From contig JAGSGY010000001.1 in assembly GCA_023954855.1 (NCBI GenBank), positions 124,001 through 188,000 on the forward strand: DNA of 64,000 bases, written 5' to 3'. Below, one piece after another: positions 1 through 6,388 of the stretch. Positions within the stretch are counted from its first letter, which is position 1; every line of letters begins with the position of its first letter. Below the pieces are notes generated by a model. That model had not been told where the DNA came from and ran no database searches. It worked only from the letters and a program-made list of their open reading frames with translations. The position numbers and the translations under genes are program-made. Source of the stretch: Pseudomonadota bacterium. GTDB taxonomy: Bacteria > Myxococcota_A > UBA796 > GCA-2862545.

Positions 1-377
1 TGCGCGTGCTCAAGAGCCAGAACAGCTTCCGCGGCGACAGCCATCCCGCGACCTGGCTGTACCAGGTGACCACACGCCATTGCCTGAACCGTCGCCGCAA
101 TGAGCGTCGACGCGAGGAGCTACTCGCCCACTTCGGTGACCCGAGCTGGATGAACCCCGTCAGCCCAGCCAACCAAGAGACCGTGACCTTTCTCGAGCAG
201 ATCTGGCGGGAACTCGACCCAGAGACCCTTGAAATCGCCGTGTACTTCTACCGAGACGGCCTCTCTCACGCCGCCATCGCCGAACAGCTTGGCGTCTCGC
301 GCCGAACCGTCGGCAACCGGCTCACACGCCTCATCGAGCAAGCCCGCGAAGCCGCTGGCCTTGAGAACGCGCCATGA
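1..377 (+). CDS. ECF-type RNA polymerase sigma factor, 5'-truncated by window edge
   Basis: This is the C-terminal part (about 124 residues) of a sigma-70 family extracytoplasmic-function sigma factor; the start lies before base 1. The first visible residues (FRGDSHPATWLYQVTTRHCL, then an Arg-rich stretch) match the end of sigma region 2. Residues around LDPETLEIAVYFYRDGLS and IAEQLGVSRRTVGNRL form the region 4 helix-turn-helix that reads the -35 element. The TGA stop overlaps the ATG of the next gene (ATGA at 374-377), the usual arrangement of a sigma factor with its anti-sigma factor. The GTG at base 6 is only the first in-frame start codon in the window and is not the real start. Family assignment is firm; the regulon is unknown. 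Confidence 0.85.
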   Translation, partial: RVLKSQNSFRGDSHPATWLYQVTTRHCLNRRRNERRREELLAHFGDPSWMNPVSPANQETVTFLEQIWRELDPETLEIAVYFYRDGLSHAAIAEQLGVSRRTVGNRLTRLIEQAREAAGLENAP

Positions 378-1117
378 ACTTCAGACCCGACCACCACCTC
401 ACCGACCTCGCCCTCGAGCTCGAGTTCGCCCAAGCCGCCTCCGCAGAGGTCGCAGCACACCTGGGCACATGCGAGCTTTGCACGGCGCGACTCGCGCACA
501 TCTCCGAGCTCCAGGCCGAGTTCGAGACCCTCGACCTCCCCAACTTTGGCCAAACTCCGGAGGTGGCTCCCCTTCCACCTCCCGCGAACCGCCAGCGCTA
601 CGGCGTGTGGACTGCCGCGGCACTCCTTCTCGCGACGGCGGCGGCAGTCCTGCTTGTGCAGCCGCCGACCCCGGTCGAGCCCGGATGGCGTTCCAAGGGC
701 TCGGACCTCGAGCTGCACGTGCACATTCACGATGGAACGGAGTCGCGTTTGGCGGGTCCCGACGAGGTGGTGTTCCCCGATGATCGAGTGGGATTCAGCG
801 TGCAGCCACGTCGAGAGGGCTTTCTCATCATCGCCGGAATCGATGCAGCGAACGACCCCTATTTGTGCTTTCCTCAAGACGCTTCAGCCCAGGCTCGCTG
901 GTTCGAGTCGAGTCCTGAGTTCGTGGCTCTGGATGACGCCGTGCAGCTCGATGCAACCCTCGGAACCGAACGACTCGTCGCCTTGCTCTGCGATGAGCCC
1001 GTGCACTTCGACGAGGTCGCCGAGGCGCTCGAGGCCGCTGGCGATGAGGTACCCGCACCCTCGTTGCTGGACGGCTGCGCACAGCGCGAGCATCGCCTGA
1101 TCAAGGAACAGCCATGA
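374..1117 (+). CDS. Membrane anti-sigma factor with zinc-finger motif and DUF4384-like periplasmic domain
   Basis: The 247-residue protein has a ZAS-type motif H29-x3-C33-x2-C36 in a cytoplasmic N-terminal segment. A single hydrophobic helix follows at about residues 77-95, then a periplasmic part of about 150 residues. That part contains FPDDRVGFSVQPRREGFLII and an acidic-aromatic run ending in LCFP, which resembles DUF4384 domains often found beside bacterial caspases and kinases (inference from pattern only). It should hold the upstream sigma factor at the membrane until a signal arrives. It overlaps both neighbours by four bases (ATGA), so sigma, anti-sigma and caspase are translationally coupled. 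The sensing ligand is unknown. Confidence 0.75.
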   Translation: MNFRPDHHLTDLALELEFAQAASAEVAAHLGTCELCTARLAHISELQAEFETLDLPNFGQTPEVAPLPPPANRQRYGVWTAAALLLATAAAVLLVQPPTPVEPGWRSKGSDLELHVHIHDGTESRLAGPDEVVFPDDRVGFSVQPRREGFLIIAGIDAANDPYLCFPQDASAQARWFESSPEFVALDDAVQLDATLGTERLVALLCDEPVHFDEVAEALEAAGDEVPAPSLLDGCAQREHRLIKEQP

Positions 1118-2643
1118 GAGCTCTCCTGCTTGCAGGACTGCTCTTTCACAGCGTCGCTCTCGCCGGCGAGACGCGGCGCTATGCCCTGGTCATTGGCGCC
1201 AACGAGGGCAACCTCGCCGACGGGCCGCTGTACTTCGCCGAGCGCGATGCCGAGCGCGTGGCCGACGTGCTGACCCGGGCGGGCGGTGTCTACGAAGAGA
1301 ATGCCGTGCTCCTTCGTGCGCCTGCCGCAGCTCGCGTGGAGCAGGCCATCCACCGACTCGGCAGCCGTATCGCCGCAGACCGGGCAAGTGGCGCAGTCGA
1401 TGAGGCGTTGGTCTTCTTCTACTACTCGGGCCACGGTGACGCGACATCCCTGCATCTCGGCCAGAGCCAGCTCATGCTCGGTAAGCTCACCGACTCGCTG
1501 GACACGATGGGGGCGGACCTCCGCGTCGTGGTCGTCGATGCCTGCCGCTCGGGCGAGCTGACGCGCATCAAGGGAGCGAAGCCCGCGGCCCCGTTCGAGT
1601 TCACGATCGACGAAGACCTGATGAGCCAGGGCACCGCCATCATCACCTCGTCGTCATCCGGAGAAGATGCCCAGGAGTCCGACAACCTCGAAGGTGGCGT
1701 CTTCACACACCACTTCGTGGCCGGCTTGCTCGGGGCGGCGGACGTCAGCGGAGACGGCGAGGTCACCCTCACCGAGGCCTACCACTACGGTTCGACGCAG
1801 ACCATCCGCACGACGTCGAGCGCACCATTCGTACAGCATCCGACCTACCGATTCGACCTCGCAGGCACTCAGGACCTCGTGCTGACCCGCATCGCCAGCG
1901 ACCGCGCCGGTGTACTCACCCTCGCAAAAGCCGGCGACTACGTGGTCCTCGGTCGCCGCGGCGATGTGCTCACCGAGGTCAGCGTCGGGGACGCCGGGCA
2001 AATCGCGCTACCCGCGGGCTCGTACACGGTCCGCTACCGCGGTGTCTCAGAGGTCCGGGAAGCCGAGCTACAGCTTCGCGCTGGAACATCGGCAACACTC
2101 GACGCATCCGACATGACCGCCCTTCCCGCTGGCCTCGTGGTTCGAAAGGGACTGGCCACGGAGCGTCGCGCCTTCGCCGTCACCACGGGCGCTGGTGTGA
2201 GCGCAGCCATCGTCCCCGACATGACACCCGGCGTCGCTGCGACCCTCGGTGTGCGCGTCGACACTCCCGCGGCCACCTTGCTGCCGCGGCTTCGCTACGC
2301 CCACCACCTGCACCGCAATAGTGACCTCACCCTGCGCCAACACGCACTCGGCATCGACGTCGGCGCTTACCGTCTGTTCGACCTCGGCCCGACCGCCCTC
2401 GGCCCTGGCCTACGCGTTGGTGTGGACGGGGTGATGCAAACCTTCCAGACCCGAGGCAAGGCCCCAAACCGGCAGGCCTTTGTTCCGCGTACCGGGCCCG
2501 CGCTTCGCTTCGAAGTCGCCCCAGCACGACGCTGGCTCCTCGGCTTGGAGGGTGGCGTCGATCTCGGCCTCGTCCCCATGCAACAGAAACTCTCGACCCA
2601 GGTGGCCCCTCATGTGGCGCTGGACCTCAGCCTTTACCGCTAG
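1114..2643 (+). CDS. Exported caspase-family (C14) peptidase with C-terminal beta-barrel-like domain
   Basis: The 509-residue protein starts with a signal peptide (MRALLLAGLLFHSVALAGE, predicted cleavage near residue 18). A caspase/metacaspase fold occupies about residues 20-240. The catalytic histidine is H107 in FYYSGHGD and the catalytic cysteine C144 in VVDACRSG; both motifs are intact. Residues about 250-340 look like a small beta domain (GDYVVLGRRGDVLTEVSV, LPAGSYTVRYRG). The last 165 residues alternate short hydrophobic and polar strands with Gly turns and end in LDLSLYR, which suggests an outer-membrane beta-barrel. Export of a caspase domain with a barrel would place proteolysis at the cell surface or in the periplasm. 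The start overlaps the anti-sigma stop (ATGA). Family call firm; barrel inferred. Confidence 0.82.
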   Translation: MRALLLAGLLFHSVALAGETRRYALVIGANEGNLADGPLYFAERDAERVADVLTRAGGVYEENAVLLRAPAAARVEQAIHRLGSRIAADRASGAVDEALVFFYYSGHGDATSLHLGQSQLMLGKLTDSLDTMGADLRVVVVDACRSGELTRIKGAKPAAPFEFTIDEDLMSQGTAIITSSSSGEDAQESDNLEGGVFTHHFVAGLLGAADVSGDGEVTLTEAYHYGSTQTIRTTSSAPFVQHPTYRFDLAGTQDLVLTRIASDRAGVLTLAKAGDYVVLGRRGDVLTEVSVGDAGQIALPAGSYTVRYRGVSEVREAELQLRAGTSATLDASDMTALPAGLVVRKGLATERRAFAVTTGAGVSAAIVPDMTPGVAATLGVRVDTPAATLLPRLRYAHHLHRNSDLTLRQHALGIDVGAYRLFDLGPTALGPGLRVGVDGVMQTFQTRGKAPNRQAFVPRTGPALRFEVAPARRWLLGLEGGVDLGLVPMQQKLSTQVAPHVALDLSLYR

Positions 2644-3343
2644 CCTCGCGCTGCTCGGTAGCTGCGGCGGTCTCGTCGGCGGCGACTACCGAGGCGAGGC
2701 CCTGTATACCGTGCACGGAAGCGTCTTTGTGGACCCAGACGACCCCGACGCTTCGTGGCCCGACGCCCCGCTGCGCGTCGCTATCTTCTGGGCGGGTGCC
2801 GACGGTTTCAACGAGACCGAACAAGCCGTGGTGATCGAGACCGAGTTCCCAGCCCGCTACAGCCTCTCGATCTACCAGCCACCCCCTCCTGGCGTGCTCT
2901 TCTACACCCCATGGCACGACGCGAAAGTGGCTGTAGGCGTCCCCATGCTCTACCTCGACCACAACGAGGACCATCGGTGGACACCGAACGAGGAGCCGAT
3001 TGTCGGTGGCTCGTACGACCTGGCAGTGGTCTACGCAGAGGCGAGCCACGGCCAGGCCACGCTCGACGTCCAGGAGGGATACCAGTCAATGTGGGCGCTG
3101 GATGAGGTCTGCGATGACCGCGTGGCGACGGGAACCGAGTTCTTTCCCGCGGACGGCGCGCCGATGGATCTGTTTGTCGGCGCCTACTGGGAGTACGTGC
3201 GCGACTGGGACTGCGACGGTTCTTACGACGAATGGCAGGAAGCATGCCCTCCACCGCCAGACATGCAGTGGCTCTGCGACAATGACCCGCTGGCCTTCGA
3301 CGAAGACCCATTCCTCCAGGAATGCGAGTACCTCTGCGAGTGA
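2612..3343 (+). CDS. Predicted lipoprotein of unknown function
   Basis: The ATG at 2612 is chosen because it begins a short signal peptide ending in a lipobox (LLGSC). A longer upstream extension in the same frame lacks signal features and only mirrors the caspase gene. The start lies 32 bases inside the caspase gene, so it is probably the fourth member of the sigma/anti-sigma/caspase operon. The mature protein (about 225 residues) is acidic and aromatic. It contains a VHGSVFVDPDDPDA segment typical of a beta-sandwich and a Cys-rich, Asp/Glu-rich C-terminus with at least five cysteines, so disulfides are likely. I recognise no family. It may be a partner or substrate of the caspase (inference from position). 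Confidence 0.65.
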   Translation: MWRWTSAFTASLALLGSCGGLVGGDYRGEALYTVHGSVFVDPDDPDASWPDAPLRVAIFWAGADGFNETEQAVVIETEFPARYSLSIYQPPPPGVLFYTPWHDAKVAVGVPMLYLDHNEDHRWTPNEEPIVGGSYDLAVVYAEASHGQATLDVQEGYQSMWALDEVCDDRVATGTEFFPADGAPMDLFVGAYWEYVRDWDCDGSYDEWQEACPPPPDMQWLCDNDPLAFDEDPFLQECEYLCE

Positions 3344-3346
3344 GCG

Positions 3347-3634
3347 TCAGCGGTGCGCCGACCAGCCGCTGTCTTTGAGGGCAAGTTCGGCCTGCTTCTC
3401 GGGCGCGTAGGCCGTGACCACGAAGCCTGGTGACCCAGCTCGAACGTCGACCACATCCACTTCGAGCCGCGCATCGGCCCGGCGAAGCTCCACCAGCTGC
3501 CCAAGCTCCGGCTCCCAAGAGAGCTGAAACTCGACAGTCCTCGCGCCCGGCGGCGGTGGAACGTCGAAGGCCTCGGAGAGCGCAACGGCCTCGCCCCGTC
3601 CTTGGCAAGCCAGCAGGAGCAGCAGCATGCTCAC
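3347..3634 (-). CDS. Small lipoprotein with degenerate CpaB/RcpC-like domain
   Basis: The 95-residue protein starts with MSMLLLLLACQG, a minimal lipoprotein signal with cysteine at residue 10. The body (LVELRRADARLEVDVVDVRA followed by SPGFVVTAYAPEKQAELAL) resembles the end of the RcpC/CpaB domain. In that domain a regulatory value motif is followed by a T-x-x-P/A-E-Q-A-E-x-L-x-L helix. It overlaps the start of the upstream gene by four bases (ATGA at 3631-3634), so the two are coupled. The assignment is weak, made by pattern. It could also be an unrelated small beta protein. Confidence 0.55.
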   Translation of the reverse strand: MSMLLLLLACQGRGEAVALSEAFDVPPPPGARTVEFQLSWEPELGQLVELRRADARLEVDVVDVRAGSPGFVVTAYAPEKQAELALKDSGWSAHR

Positions 3635-4044
3635 TCGTGAAGGACCGCGCGCGGGCGACCTGGTAGCTGTGAGCCGAGCAAGCGCCCACGATGCTCCGAA
3701 GTCAGCGCGAAGGTGACCTTGCTGCCCCGGGACTCGACTGCGGCCGCTAGGACCTCGACCTCCTTTGCAATCAGCACTTCGGAGCCATCCGCCCCGGCGG
3801 CGACCAGATCGACGAAGGATCCGACGCCGACCCGGCTGTCGACATCACCTTCGCGCATCAACAGCGTCATCGCGCCGTAGCCCTCCGGCAGATCGAAGGT
3901 CGGTTCATCGACCTTTGGAGGTGTCGGAGGCGCCGGTGTGCCCGGGACAACCGCCTCGACCGCGCGCTCCGGAGTGGGTTCTGCACTAGGCGCAGCCGTG
4001 GTGCCGCAACCAATGACGAGGGCCAGTACCAGCACCATGCGCAC
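3631..4044 (-). CDS. Lipoprotein with CpaB/RcpC-like (Flp pilus assembly) domain
   Basis: The 137-residue protein has a lipoprotein signal (MRMVLVLALVIGCG, Cys13) and a Pro-rich linker (residues about 18-45). A domain follows with the order seen in the RcpC part of CpaB: AMTLLMREGDVDSRVGVGSF, VDLVAAGADGSEVLIAKEVE, VLAAAV, then VTFALTSEHRGRLLGSQL. CpaB proteins are Flp/tight-adherence pilus or secretin-associated periplasmic factors, but no cpaA/C/F genes are visible here and the SAF domain is absent. It is transcribed away from the peptide-binding gene at 4145, with 100 bases between them. The family link is an inference; the lipoprotein call is fairly sure. Confidence 0.6.
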   Translation of the reverse strand: MRMVLVLALVIGCGTTAAPSAEPTPERAVEAVVPGTPAPPTPPKVDEPTFDLPEGYGAMTLLMREGDVDSRVGVGSFVDLVAAGADGSEVLIAKEVEVLAAAVESRGSKVTFALTSEHRGRLLGSQLPGRPRAVLHE

Positions 4045-4144
4045 TCCGATAGAGGGGGGTCCTGCCCGTTCGTATATCCGGTGCCTGCGTCAATGGTCGG
4101 TCACCCGCTTGACGACGGCCCTCAAAGCAGTTCGGATCACCCCC

Positions 4145-6388
4145 ATGCGCATCCTGACTCCCGCCCTCGTACTCGTGCTCGCCTCTTGCTCGAACGGCAG
4201 CGACCGCTTCGGTCTCTCCCGTGCCGATGAGCCGAACAACGTGCTCGTCTACAACAACGCAAGCGAGCCCGAATACATCGACCCGGGCTTGGCGACAGGT
4301 CATCCGGATGGCCGAATCATCGGCGAGCTCTTCGACGGACTCACCGAGTACGATCCCAAGGATCTCACGGCGCGGCCCTCGATTGCGACCCAGTGGGACG
4401 TCCACCCCGACGGCCGTGGCTACACCTTCCACATGCGCGACGACGCCAGCTGGAGCGACGGCGCCCCCGTGACGGCCTCGGACTTCGCCTACTCCTGGGA
4501 GCGAGTGCTCAACCCCGTCAACGCCGCACGCTTCGCCCAGATGCTGTACGCCGTGGAGAACGCAGAGCTGTACAACACTGGCCGCATTGGGCGGCTCCTC
4601 CAGGAGTCTGACGGCTTCGACGCCGGCCTTCCCGTCGAACTCGTGAGCGCCAATACCTTCCGCATCTCCGGCGAGACTGAAGTGAAGGACGCTGGCGGCA
4701 CCGTGGTGGCAACCCTTCCCGAGGGTCACGTGGTTCTCGGCGAGGCCTCTGGTGACAAGGTCAACGTCCAGTTCAACCCCGAGTGCAGCTTCGCCGACCT
4801 CGGCGCCCTGCTCGACTGCGACCCGCTGGCCCTGACCGGCTCTGTCGCAGCCGATGCCGCTGAGGTGGCGCTCCCAAGGCTGGATAGCCGCGTTCTCAGC
4901 GCGACCTCGAGCCTCAAAAACCGCGCCGGACAAGTGCTCACCGAGCTCGAGCGCGGCGAAGTCGTCACCGTGCTCACCTGGGACGACAGCGGCCCCTTCG
5001 TGCTCTACGGAACCGAAGACCTGTATGGACGCGTCAGCGCCGACGCGCTCGCCGATCCGCGGAGCGAACACGTTCGCGTCGAGTTCCGCTCGCTGCCCGA
5101 GTTCAACTGGGAGGGCATTGAGCCCGAGGTCATCGAGGACACCGCAACGCCGCCCGACGCCCCTCCCGGAGGCGAGCCCCTCGAGGCCGACGATCCCGAG
5201 CCCGACGAGCTGACCACCGGCTGGGTAGCCCTGGCTGACTTGCAGCTCGAGCCTTCACTCCTCGGCGTGCGTGCACGTGACGCCCACACCCTGGACGTAC
5301 GCCTGGGTGGTGTGGCCCCGTACTTCTTGCAGGAGACCAGCCACACCACGCTCCGTGCGGTCCCGCACCAGGCCATCGAGGCCCACGGACCCCGCTGGAC
5401 CCGGCCAGAGAACATCGTCACGAATGGGCCCTTCCTGCTCGACGAGCACGTCGTTCGCGACAAGTTTGTGCTCGTGCGCAACCCCACCTGGTGGGGCACC
5501 GGAGAGCTGAGCCTCGACAAGGTCATCGCCTACGGCGTGGACAACCTCCACACGTCCGCAAACCTCTACAAGGCCGGCTACACCGACTTCGTCGTCGCGA
5601 ACGACCTGCCGGCCGAGTTCATCCCGATCCTCAAAGAGAAGAAGGACTTTCACACGGCCCCTGCCCTGTCGGTCTACCTGTACCGGTTCAACACCACCCG
5701 CGCGCCGATGGACGATGCCAAGGTTCGCCGCGCCCTCGCCATGGCGATCAATCGCGACGACATCGTGAGTATTCTCAAGGCGGGCCAGGTTCCCGCGAGC
5801 CACATCGTGCCGCCCGGACTCCCCGGCTACGAGGGCCCAGAAGGCCCGAAATTCGACCCAGAGGCGGCTCGGGCCCTGCTCGCAGAGGCTGGATACCCCG
5901 ATGGCGAGGGCTTCCCCGAGATCAGCATTCTCTACAACACCCAGGAGTCCCACAAGCTCGTGGCTGCGGTCATCCAGGACAACTGGAAGACGAACCTCGG
6001 CGTCACCGTGAAGCTCGAGAACCGCGAGTGGAAGACCTACCTCAAGACCGTCAACGGGATGGACTTCGACATCGCCCGCGGCGGTTGGATTGGCGACTAC
6101 CTCGACCCGAACACCTTCTTGGACCTGTGGATCGAGAACGGCGGCAACAACAACACGGGCTGGTCTAGCGAGGAGTACGACGCGCTCATCGCCAGGGCAG
6201 CCGCCGAGCCCGACGTCGAGGAGCGCATGCGCGTGCTCGCCGAGGCAGAAGGCATCCTCAATGAGGAGATGCCGTTCATCCCGCTCTACTGGTACGTCTG
6301 GGCCGAGCTCAAGCAGCCCGATGTGCGCGGCCTCGAGCCCAACCTGATGGACCAGCACCCCCTGCGCTGGGTCAGTCTGGACCGGTAG
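4145..6388 (+). CDS. ABC transporter oligopeptide-binding lipoprotein (OppA/DppA type) with SH3-like insert
   Basis: The ATG at 4145 gives a 747-residue protein with a lipobox (LVLASC, Cys15). The upstream in-frame extension has no signal peptide and crosses the divergent promoter region, so I reject it. The N-terminal lobe (NASEPEYIDPGLATGH, then GELFDGLTEYDP and WSDGAPVTASDFAYSWERVL) and the C-terminal lobe (TNGPFLLDEHV, AINRDDIV, PLYWYVWAEL) are classic family 5 solute-binding protein. Between about residues 178 and 364 sits an extra acidic segment of about 185 residues with an SH3b-like stretch (AGQVLTELERGEVVTVLTW, then LYGRVSADAL). No permease or ATPase gene is adjacent. The protein should capture peptides in the periplasm, or at the outer membrane if lipid sorted. 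Confidence 0.88.
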   Translation: MRILTPALVLVLASCSNGSDRFGLSRADEPNNVLVYNNASEPEYIDPGLATGHPDGRIIGELFDGLTEYDPKDLTARPSIATQWDVHPDGRGYTFHMRDDASWSDGAPVTASDFAYSWERVLNPVNAARFAQMLYAVENAELYNTGRIGRLLQESDGFDAGLPVELVSANTFRISGETEVKDAGGTVVATLPEGHVVLGEASGDKVNVQFNPECSFADLGALLDCDPLALTGSVAADAAEVALPRLDSRVLSATSSLKNRAGQVLTELERGEVVTVLTWDDSGPFVLYGTEDLYGRVSADALADPRSEHVRVEFRSLPEFNWEGIEPEVIEDTATPPDAPPGGEPLEADDPEPDELTTGWVALADLQLEPSLLGVRARDAHTLDVRLGGVAPYFLQETSHTTLRAVPHQAIEAHGPRWTRPENIVTNGPFLLDEHVVRDKFVLVRNPTWWGTGELSLDKVIAYGVDNLHTSANLYKAGYTDFVVANDLPAEFIPILKEKKDFHTAPALSVYLYRFNTTRAPMDDAKVRRALAMAINRDDIVSILKAGQVPASHIVPPGLPGYEGPEGPKFDPEAARALLAEAGYPDGEGFPEISILYNTQESHKLVAAVIQDNWKTNLGVTVKLENREWKTYLKTVNGMDFDIARGGWIGDYLDPNTFLDLWIENGGNNNTGWSSEEYDALIARAAAEPDVEERMRVLAEAEGILNEEMPFIPLYWYVWAELKQPDVRGLEPNLMDQHPLRWVSLDR

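Follow-up and report, generated by a model that had tools for sequence, protein, structure and literature searches.

Four genes, encoding an ECF sigma factor, a membrane anti-sigma factor, an exported caspase and a lipoprotein, lie in this order at the beginning of the window, as the whole stretch of 64,000 nucleotides analyzed is called here. All the features described below are on the plus strand. The genes form a genuine operon, every pair of neighbours overlapping, as an earlier sequence-only reading of this DNA had described. The sigma gene runs to position 377, the anti-sigma gene spans 374-1117, the caspase gene 1114-2643, and the lipoprotein gene, counted from its ATG, 2612-3343. The anti-sigma gene has a 4-base ATGA overlap with each neighbour gene. 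The gene order is conserved far beyond chance, sigma and anti-sigma genes being found immediately 5' of the caspase gene in 68 of the 71 named loci with sufficient flank, and the caspase homologues carry signal peptides; the conserved synteny that the sequence-only reading had looked to for support is thus there. Across the order, a caspase adjoins 103 of 122 anti-sigma matches, and the caspase and anti-sigma families reside largely in the same genomes (101 and 95, respectively, of the same 286 genomes of the phylum, at the E-values chosen). The operon type is carried by many myxobacteria, the caspase system being found in Archangium, Sorangium, Polyangium and Nannocystis. A conserved ECF promoter (GAAC-N14-18-CGT), searched for 5' of the sigma gene as a simple pattern, is essentially absent.

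The sigma gene is truncated by the start of the window, which holds its 3' part (1-377). The full gene starts 142 bases upstream, in the parent contig (L005:5859-6377), and encodes a protein of 172 aa, which scores 42 bits with Sigma70_r2 and 32 bits with Sigma70_r4_2, both above the Pfam cut-offs, and 69 bits with TIGR02937, also above cut-off. Made up by sigma2 and sigma4 domains only, and about 20 kDa in size, the protein is an ECF sigma factor.

The anti-sigma factor (374-1117, 247 aa) is a ZAS protein, in which a cytoplasmic zinc-binding domain, a single transmembrane helix and a DUF4384-like outer domain follow each other. The zinc-binding motif H29-x3-C33-x2-C36 (458-481) is invariant in 52 of 52 homologues, and the cytoplasmic part folds into helices at residues 8-51 in the AlphaFold model; the zf-HC2 domain was found in 19 of the 52 family members. 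The zinc motif is lost in some divergent paralogue subtypes. The transmembrane helix (602-658, residues 77-95) is a helix in the AlphaFold model and a hydrophobic run in the homologues. The outer beta domain (707-1105, residues 112-244), delimited by AlphaFold and homologue comparison, has pLDDT values mostly of 97-98 and an invariant cysteine pair (C206/C235); its fold has no confident match in the PDB (best E 2e-3). The sequence-only reading had assigned this protein to a DUF4384-like type. The window protein remains below the Pfam cut-off for DUF4384 (PF14326; 18.7 vs. 27 bits), yet 32 of the 52 homologues match at E<=0.01; it is therefore regarded as a distant relative of DUF4384, and named DUF4384-like. 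The topology is strongly predicted, with the zinc domain in the cytoplasm and the folded beta domain in the periplasm, linked by the one transmembrane helix and a flexible stalk. Binding and inhibition of the sigma factor are the predicted functions.

The caspase (1114-2643, 509 aa) is a member of the Peptidase C14 family, as shown by the Pfam domain, the HC dyad and the caspase-hemoglobinase fold. The Peptidase_C14 domain (1171-1863, about residues 20-250) scores 44.1 bits against a cut-off of 21.4, was modelled with confidence by AlphaFold, and resembles caspase-6, yeast Yca1 and legumain in Foldseek comparison. Catalytic His107 (1432-1434) and Cys144, earlier reported as intact, are invariant, the pair being present without exception in 126 distinct caspases. 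Cys144 is part of the D142-A-C144 segment (1537-1545), which aligns with the metacaspase DSC motif and includes an aspartate of the S1 pocket; a second pocket aspartate, D45 (1246-1248), aligns with the metacaspase ND motif. Among 59 aligned caspases, D142 is found in all 59, and residue 45 is D in 57 and E in 2. In metacaspases a basic P1 residue is accommodated by pocket residues corresponding to D95 and D211 of TbMC2 (PMC6426788). Both acidic residues that confer basic P1 specificity on metacaspases are hence kept in this caspase, for which the same specificity is predicted.

The protease domain is preceded by a signal peptide (1114-1167, about residues 1-18), recognized in the sequence; a hydrophobic N-terminus with an AxA-like site is present in 56 of the 59 aligned caspases. 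It is followed by a small all-beta domain (1879-2103, about residues 256-330; AlphaFold) and by a C-terminal barrel of eight strands (2170-2637, residues 353-508; AlphaFold, Foldseek). Signal peptide and barrel had both been anticipated from the sequence, and the barrel is closed in the AlphaFold model, with pLDDT values of 92-98. Foldseek matches it to OmpA, NspA, Ail and OmpX at E-values of 1e-5 to 1e-7, with probability 1.0 for OmpA, NspA and OmpX, and an aromatic residue is found among the last three positions in 50 of the 59 aligned caspases. Eight antiparallel strands, closure, signal peptide and aromatic C-terminal signature identify a barrel of the OmpA/OmpX type, predicted to insert into the outer membrane. 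In OmpA-type barrels, having an even number of strands, both termini are periplasmic, and the caspase domain should therefore face the periplasm and the anti-sigma factor of the inner membrane. Export of the caspase, its anchoring in the outer membrane and the orientation of the protease domain towards the periplasm are all strongly predicted. The surface-anchored caspase of the sequence-only reading is probably wrong, since the 8-strand barrel leaves both ends in the periplasm. The accompanying statement, which gives known bacterial caspases a usual place in the cytoplasm, holds only in part: according to a 2012 survey, about 15% of prokaryotic caspase homologues have transmembrane helices, many of them probably signal peptides (Asplund-Samuelsson et al., PMC3501461).

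The fourth gene (2612-3343) encodes a bacterial lipoprotein of 243 aa, with a signal peptide and a lipobox cysteine (LGS-C18) evident in the sequence, and no match in Pfam or NCBIfam. Its homologues reside 3' of the caspase gene in 33 of 71 loci, and 5' of the sigma gene in 27 of 71. A simple lipobox pattern is present in 58 of 76 homologous ORFs.

Caspase and anti-sigma factor share the motif R-x-[K/R]-G. In the caspase, R151-I-K153-G154 (1564-1575) is located in the loop after the catalytic cysteine, and is a putative self-cleavage or pseudosubstrate site; the loop is disordered in the AlphaFold model (pLDDT <50 at residues 146-161 and 165-171), but K153 and G154 are conserved in 59 of 59 sequences, and R151 in 56. 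In the anti-sigma factor, the candidate cleavage site R106-S-K108-G109 (689-700) is juxtamembrane, on the periplasmic side, at the end of a low-confidence linker (pLDDT <50 at residues 102-107). The linker is otherwise variable; among 52 homologues, R106 is found in 46 and G109 in 50, while position 108 is always basic (48 K, 4 R). The stalk motif is retained even in divergent anti-sigma subtypes lacking the zinc motif. The basic stalk residues sit on the outer side of the membrane, contrary to the positive-inside tendency. The combination of conserved acidic pocket residues, R-x-K-G loop and matching R-x-[K/R]-G stalk is new here. In the searchable literature we met with no description of the barrel, of the anti-sigma role or of the motif common to both proteins, nor with a paper on a caspase together with DUF4384 and a sigma factor, or on Peptidase_C14 with ECF.

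Signalling is the best-supported role of the operon, the likely substrate being the anti-sigma factor, and the matching motifs suggest that this protein may be cleaved by the caspase. A signal at the outer membrane, sensed by the barrel and/or the lipoprotein, would activate the caspase, perhaps by way of a cut in the R-x-K-G loop beside its catalytic cysteine. The active caspase would sever the anti-sigma stalk at R-x-[K/R]-G, on the C-terminal side of the basic residue and close to the outer face of the inner membrane (site 1), and a site-2 metalloprotease would complete the cleavage and free the sigma factor. Homologues of M50 site-2 proteases are present in the genome. We hold by a slight preference that the operon is such a transmembrane signalling system, in which the ECF sigma factor is controlled by proteolysis and the caspase acts as site-1 protease on the anti-sigma factor. 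The extension to the whole phylum, in which outer-membrane-anchored, periplasm-facing caspases are the site-1 proteases of ECF pathways, recognizing R-x-[K/R]-G in their own activation loop and in the cognate anti-sigma stalk, is tentative, its chances being somewhat under even.

The caspase might also be an output of the sigma factor, which other proteases would free under envelope stress, the induced caspase then processing or destroying envelope proteins in repair, remodelling or cell death. Co-transcription with the sigma gene fits, many ECF operons being autoregulated, as do the full conservation of the catalytic pair and the developmental lysis suggested for Myxococcus metacaspases in the 2012 survey (PMC3501461). 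This account is nevertheless unlikely, as it leaves unexplained the R-x-K-G common to caspase loop and anti-sigma stalk, and does not say why the DUF4384-like anti-sigma family should be tied to the caspase over other targets. Neither a lytic partner nor an immunity gene nor a defence neighbour was seen around the caspase, whose neighbours are the sigma, anti-sigma and lipoprotein genes, and PADLOC matched just its generic caspase model at the locus. The killing or self/non-self module previously envisaged was discarded for lack of defence partners; specific evidence for it was not found, the loci being conserved operons, often several per genome.

Used as a control of the proposed cleavage, homologues of the anti-sigma factor or of its DUF4384-like domain without a caspase within about 3 kb gave a mixed outcome, the basic-Gly motif being absent in 5 and kept in 7 of 12. 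Four of these losses fall within a single related group, few further members of which were found in the order. Other caspases are encoded in the genomes of some of the keepers. The K-G pair, where the first beta strand begins, could nonetheless be structural. The seven keepers would fit a basic-Gly pair that caps this strand, an unrelated site-1 protease cutting the anti-sigma factor and the caspase acting on something else in the periplasm. Yet the domain does not need the pair, because it is still recognizable in the five homologues that lost it, and both the interchange of K and R at a single position and the recurrence of the motif in the caspase loop speak against a cap, which is improbable. 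Even less credible is an anti-sigma stalk or periplasmic domain held uncut in the caspase active site, as inhibitor or anchor (pseudosubstrate) giving a FecA/FecR-like conformational signal: the motif of the stalk looks like that of the caspase loop, and an outer-membrane barrel opposite an inner-membrane anti-sigma factor resembles the topology of surface signalling, but a purely conformational signal would not require absolute conservation of the catalytic pair (126/126).

The proposed cleavage of the anti-sigma factor by the caspase has relatives among known systems. RseA, the anti-sigma factor of the E. coli sigma-E pathway (RseA/DegS/RseP), likewise crosses its membrane once and has a cytoplasmic domain for sigma binding and a periplasmic one, and the M50 homologues would provide the site-2 step; DegS is an inner-membrane PDZ serine protease, whereas the site-1 protease proposed here is an outer-membrane-anchored caspase. 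Regulated proteolysis of the RseA type is discussed in PMC10028731, together with the type III-E Craspase (Csx29 TPR-CHAT, Csx30, CASP-sigma), in which the anti-sigma factor Csx30, inhibitor of an ECF sigma factor, is a substrate of caspase-like Csx29; the idea that a caspase-fold protease cuts an anti-sigma factor and relieves ECF inhibition is common to both. Craspase differs in being cytoplasmic, RNA-activated and CHAT rather than C14, and Csx30 does not belong among the ZAS/DUF4384 membrane proteins. Operons joining a sigma-70 factor and a metacaspase were reported in Myxococcus xanthus in 2012, and caspase homologue/sigma operons noted also in Anaeromyxobacter, Haliangium, Sorangium, Ralstonia and Fibrobacter (PMC3501461). 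As here, the Myxococcus caspase homologue shares its operon with a sigma factor; the anti-sigma gene, outer-membrane barrel, lipoprotein and cleavage motif described here do not appear in the accessible part of that account. Orthocaspases and metacaspases (MEROPS C14B) have the caspase fold, HC dyad and acidic S1 pocket in common with this caspase, which adds a signal peptide, an extra beta domain and a C-terminal OmpA-like barrel. In contrast to FecI/FecR/FecA cell-surface signalling, the barrel is small, of eight strands, lacks a TonB plug and bears a protease.

To our knowledge, little is established about what bacterial caspase homologues cut and do in nature, and debate has focused on roles in cell death and in defence against phages. 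For this operon the substrate, cleavage residue and compartment, and sigma activity as the readout, can each be specified beforehand, and the question is therefore reducible to a few point mutations in cultured myxobacteria. If true, the proposal would describe a caspase signalling cascade across two membranes with a defined substrate, add an outer-membrane-tethered protease to the bacterial routes for passing signals across two membranes, and give bacterial caspases of this type a testable job.

Both caspases with a T150L loop pair with K-to-R stalks, related sequences in a table too small for a co-variation test. Two kinds of departure from the motif speak, as does the missing ECF promoter pattern, against the proposal. 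Three caspase-linked anti-sigma factors are off motif (RVKS in L040, RRKS in L045, RSMGG in L095). In a divergent caspase subtype the loop is GQGKS or similar, not TRxKG, and its anti-sigma factor retains [K/R]G.

The window starts partway through the sigma gene, the first of the four genes of an operon. Read on the parent contig, the complete gene encodes an ordinary ECF sigma factor of 172 aa. Genes for an anti-sigma factor (374-1117, 247 aa) and an exported caspase (1114-2643) follow, each joined to the preceding gene by an ATGA overlap, and the last gene, for a lipoprotein (ATG 2612-3343), begins inside the end of the caspase gene. The sequence-only reading was correct in all its gene calls, as well as in the signal peptide and the catalytic residues. 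The gene directly 5' of sigma, which falls outside the window, encodes a likely lipoprotein of 307 aa, composed of Cys-rich repeats (CDTAYDECLDSGQDPNAC...) with a Gly/Asn tail (4830-5753 of L005, the retrieved locus spanning the operon start). On the minus strand at 3347-4044, convergent with the operon, are two small ORFs that overlap each other; their N-termini are lipoprotein-like or signal-like, and neither has a Pfam match. On the plus strand, 4144-6388 resembles an OppA-like peptide-binding protein of an ABC transporter, interrupted internally by an insertion that carries a possible SH3-like segment.

Caspase residues 21-206 match Peptidase_C14 (Pfam) well above the cut-off. The AlphaFold model, built on a 59-sequence alignment (mean pLDDT 88.7, pTM 0.83), shows the signal peptide followed by the caspase fold, then a small beta domain and finally eight strands at 353-508 (block pLDDT 92-98). 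Foldseek matches in the PDB fall into two separate groups, caspase-6, yeast metacaspase Yca1 and legumain versus OmpA, NspA, Ail and OmpX (E 1e-5 to 1e-7 for the latter). The C-terminal barrel suggested in the sequence-only reading is thus well supported as a prediction, by strands and matches alike. The last strand ends the protein in the homologues, 50 of 59 having an aromatic residue among the last three positions. Both termini of OmpA-type barrels with an even strand number are periplasmic, and the protease domain should therefore face the periplasm, not the cell surface as proposed earlier; nor was the suggested killing role borne out.

In the anti-sigma factor the H-x3-C-x2-C motif is invariant. 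Basic residues precede its single TM helix, and the outer beta domain, modelled with confidence, carries a cysteine pair that is likewise invariant. Of 52 members, 19 matched zf-HC2 and 32 matched DUF4384. The linker from helix to beta domain varies and is modelled at low confidence (pLDDT <50 at residues 102-107), its end excepted: in the 52 members R106 is found in 46, and is followed by any residue, K (48) or R (4) at position 108, and G109 (50). The [K/R]-G pair is found at the same stalk position in divergent subtypes whose N-terminal domain lacks the zinc motif. An automatic scan of all loci retrieved up to that point found it after the TM helix in 112/120 caspase-linked anti-sigma proteins. 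Of the eight that it missed, several are explained by failure of the scan or truncation of the gene, and some show the motif on inspection by eye.

A similar peptide, T-R-x-K-G, lies six to ten residues past the catalytic cysteine of the caspase (K153 and G154 in 59/59, R151 in 56/59), within the only stretch modelled at pLDDT <50 (146-161 and 165-171). Cleavage within such loops is what activates caspases and metacaspases. Two aspartates enable metacaspases to accept basic P1 residues (PMC6426788). Both are kept, aligning with D45 and D142, so from sequence the caspase is expected to cleave after K or R. The stalk bearing R-x-K-G is exposed just outside the inner membrane, where site-1 cleavage of anti-sigma factors, the first cut, occurs. 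Given a K/R-cutting protease with R-x-K-G in its own loop and the same peptide in its partner's stalk, we propose that the caspase would cut the anti-sigma factor at this peptide. The operon is best read as a two-membrane ECF signalling system, the periplasm-facing caspase being the likely site-1 protease.

Twelve anti-sigma or DUF4384-like homologues with no caspase in roughly 3 kb of clear sequence each served as control. The basic-Gly pair, far commoner in the caspase-linked group, is kept in seven (L148, L152, L215, L222, L229, L233, L241) and absent in five (L150, L151, L153, L164, L242). The comparison favours a link between stalk motif and caspase, weakly, because four of the five losses form one related group, some keepers come from genomes that encode other caspases, and the counted cases are not independent of one another. 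G047, the genome of one loss, has no caspase of the operon type at E<=1e-20, and only a divergent one (L245). L150, L151, L153 and L164, a group of sigma/anti-sigma pairs, keep the outer domain of the caspase-linked proteins; in L153 and L164 the C-terminal end of a large downstream protein resembles an FHA-type segment.

Sigma-factor/metacaspase operons are not new in themselves, since four in Myxococcus xanthus, and others in further genera, are noted in a 2012 paper (PMC3501461). CHAT-domain proteases near ECF54 sigma factors are mentioned in a review (PMC8999054), and CRISPR type III-E, in which a caspase-fold protease relieves an anti-sigma factor (PMC10028731), is a precedent for the proposed action. 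Our literature search, most subscription papers being outside it and novelty thus not proven, returned no outer-membrane-anchored caspase, no caspase paired with a ZAS/DUF4384-like anti-sigma factor, and no shared R-x-K-G peptide.

Relatives in named genomes belong to Myxococcota (Sorangium, Polyangium, Minicystis, Nannocystis and Archangium included) or to the many MAGs titled Deltaproteobacteria, Proteobacteria or plain bacterium. At the chosen E-values, 101 of 286 phylum genomes carry the caspase and 95, largely the same, the anti-sigma family; 103/122 anti-sigma matches in an order-level search adjoin a caspase match. The window genome has three caspases of the operon type and a divergent fourth; one relative has 15 matches. 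The expected synteny held, sigma and anti-sigma genes lying directly 5' of the caspase in 68 of the 71 named loci whose upstream flank was long enough; a lipoprotein homologue is downstream in 33 of the 71, upstream of sigma in 27. Two homologous caspase genes (L087, L091) have an intact TRVKG loop and no sigma or anti-sigma gene in at least 5.7 kb upstream. In L155, L157, L162 and L165 the order differs, the caspase gene coming before the sigma/anti-sigma pair; the stalk K-G is still present. A divergent exported caspase subtype of about 510-590 aa (L008:5655-7175 and its relatives L154, L158-L161, L163 and L245) has its own sigma/anti-sigma pair and the loop ATCHSGQGKS or DTCHNGR.
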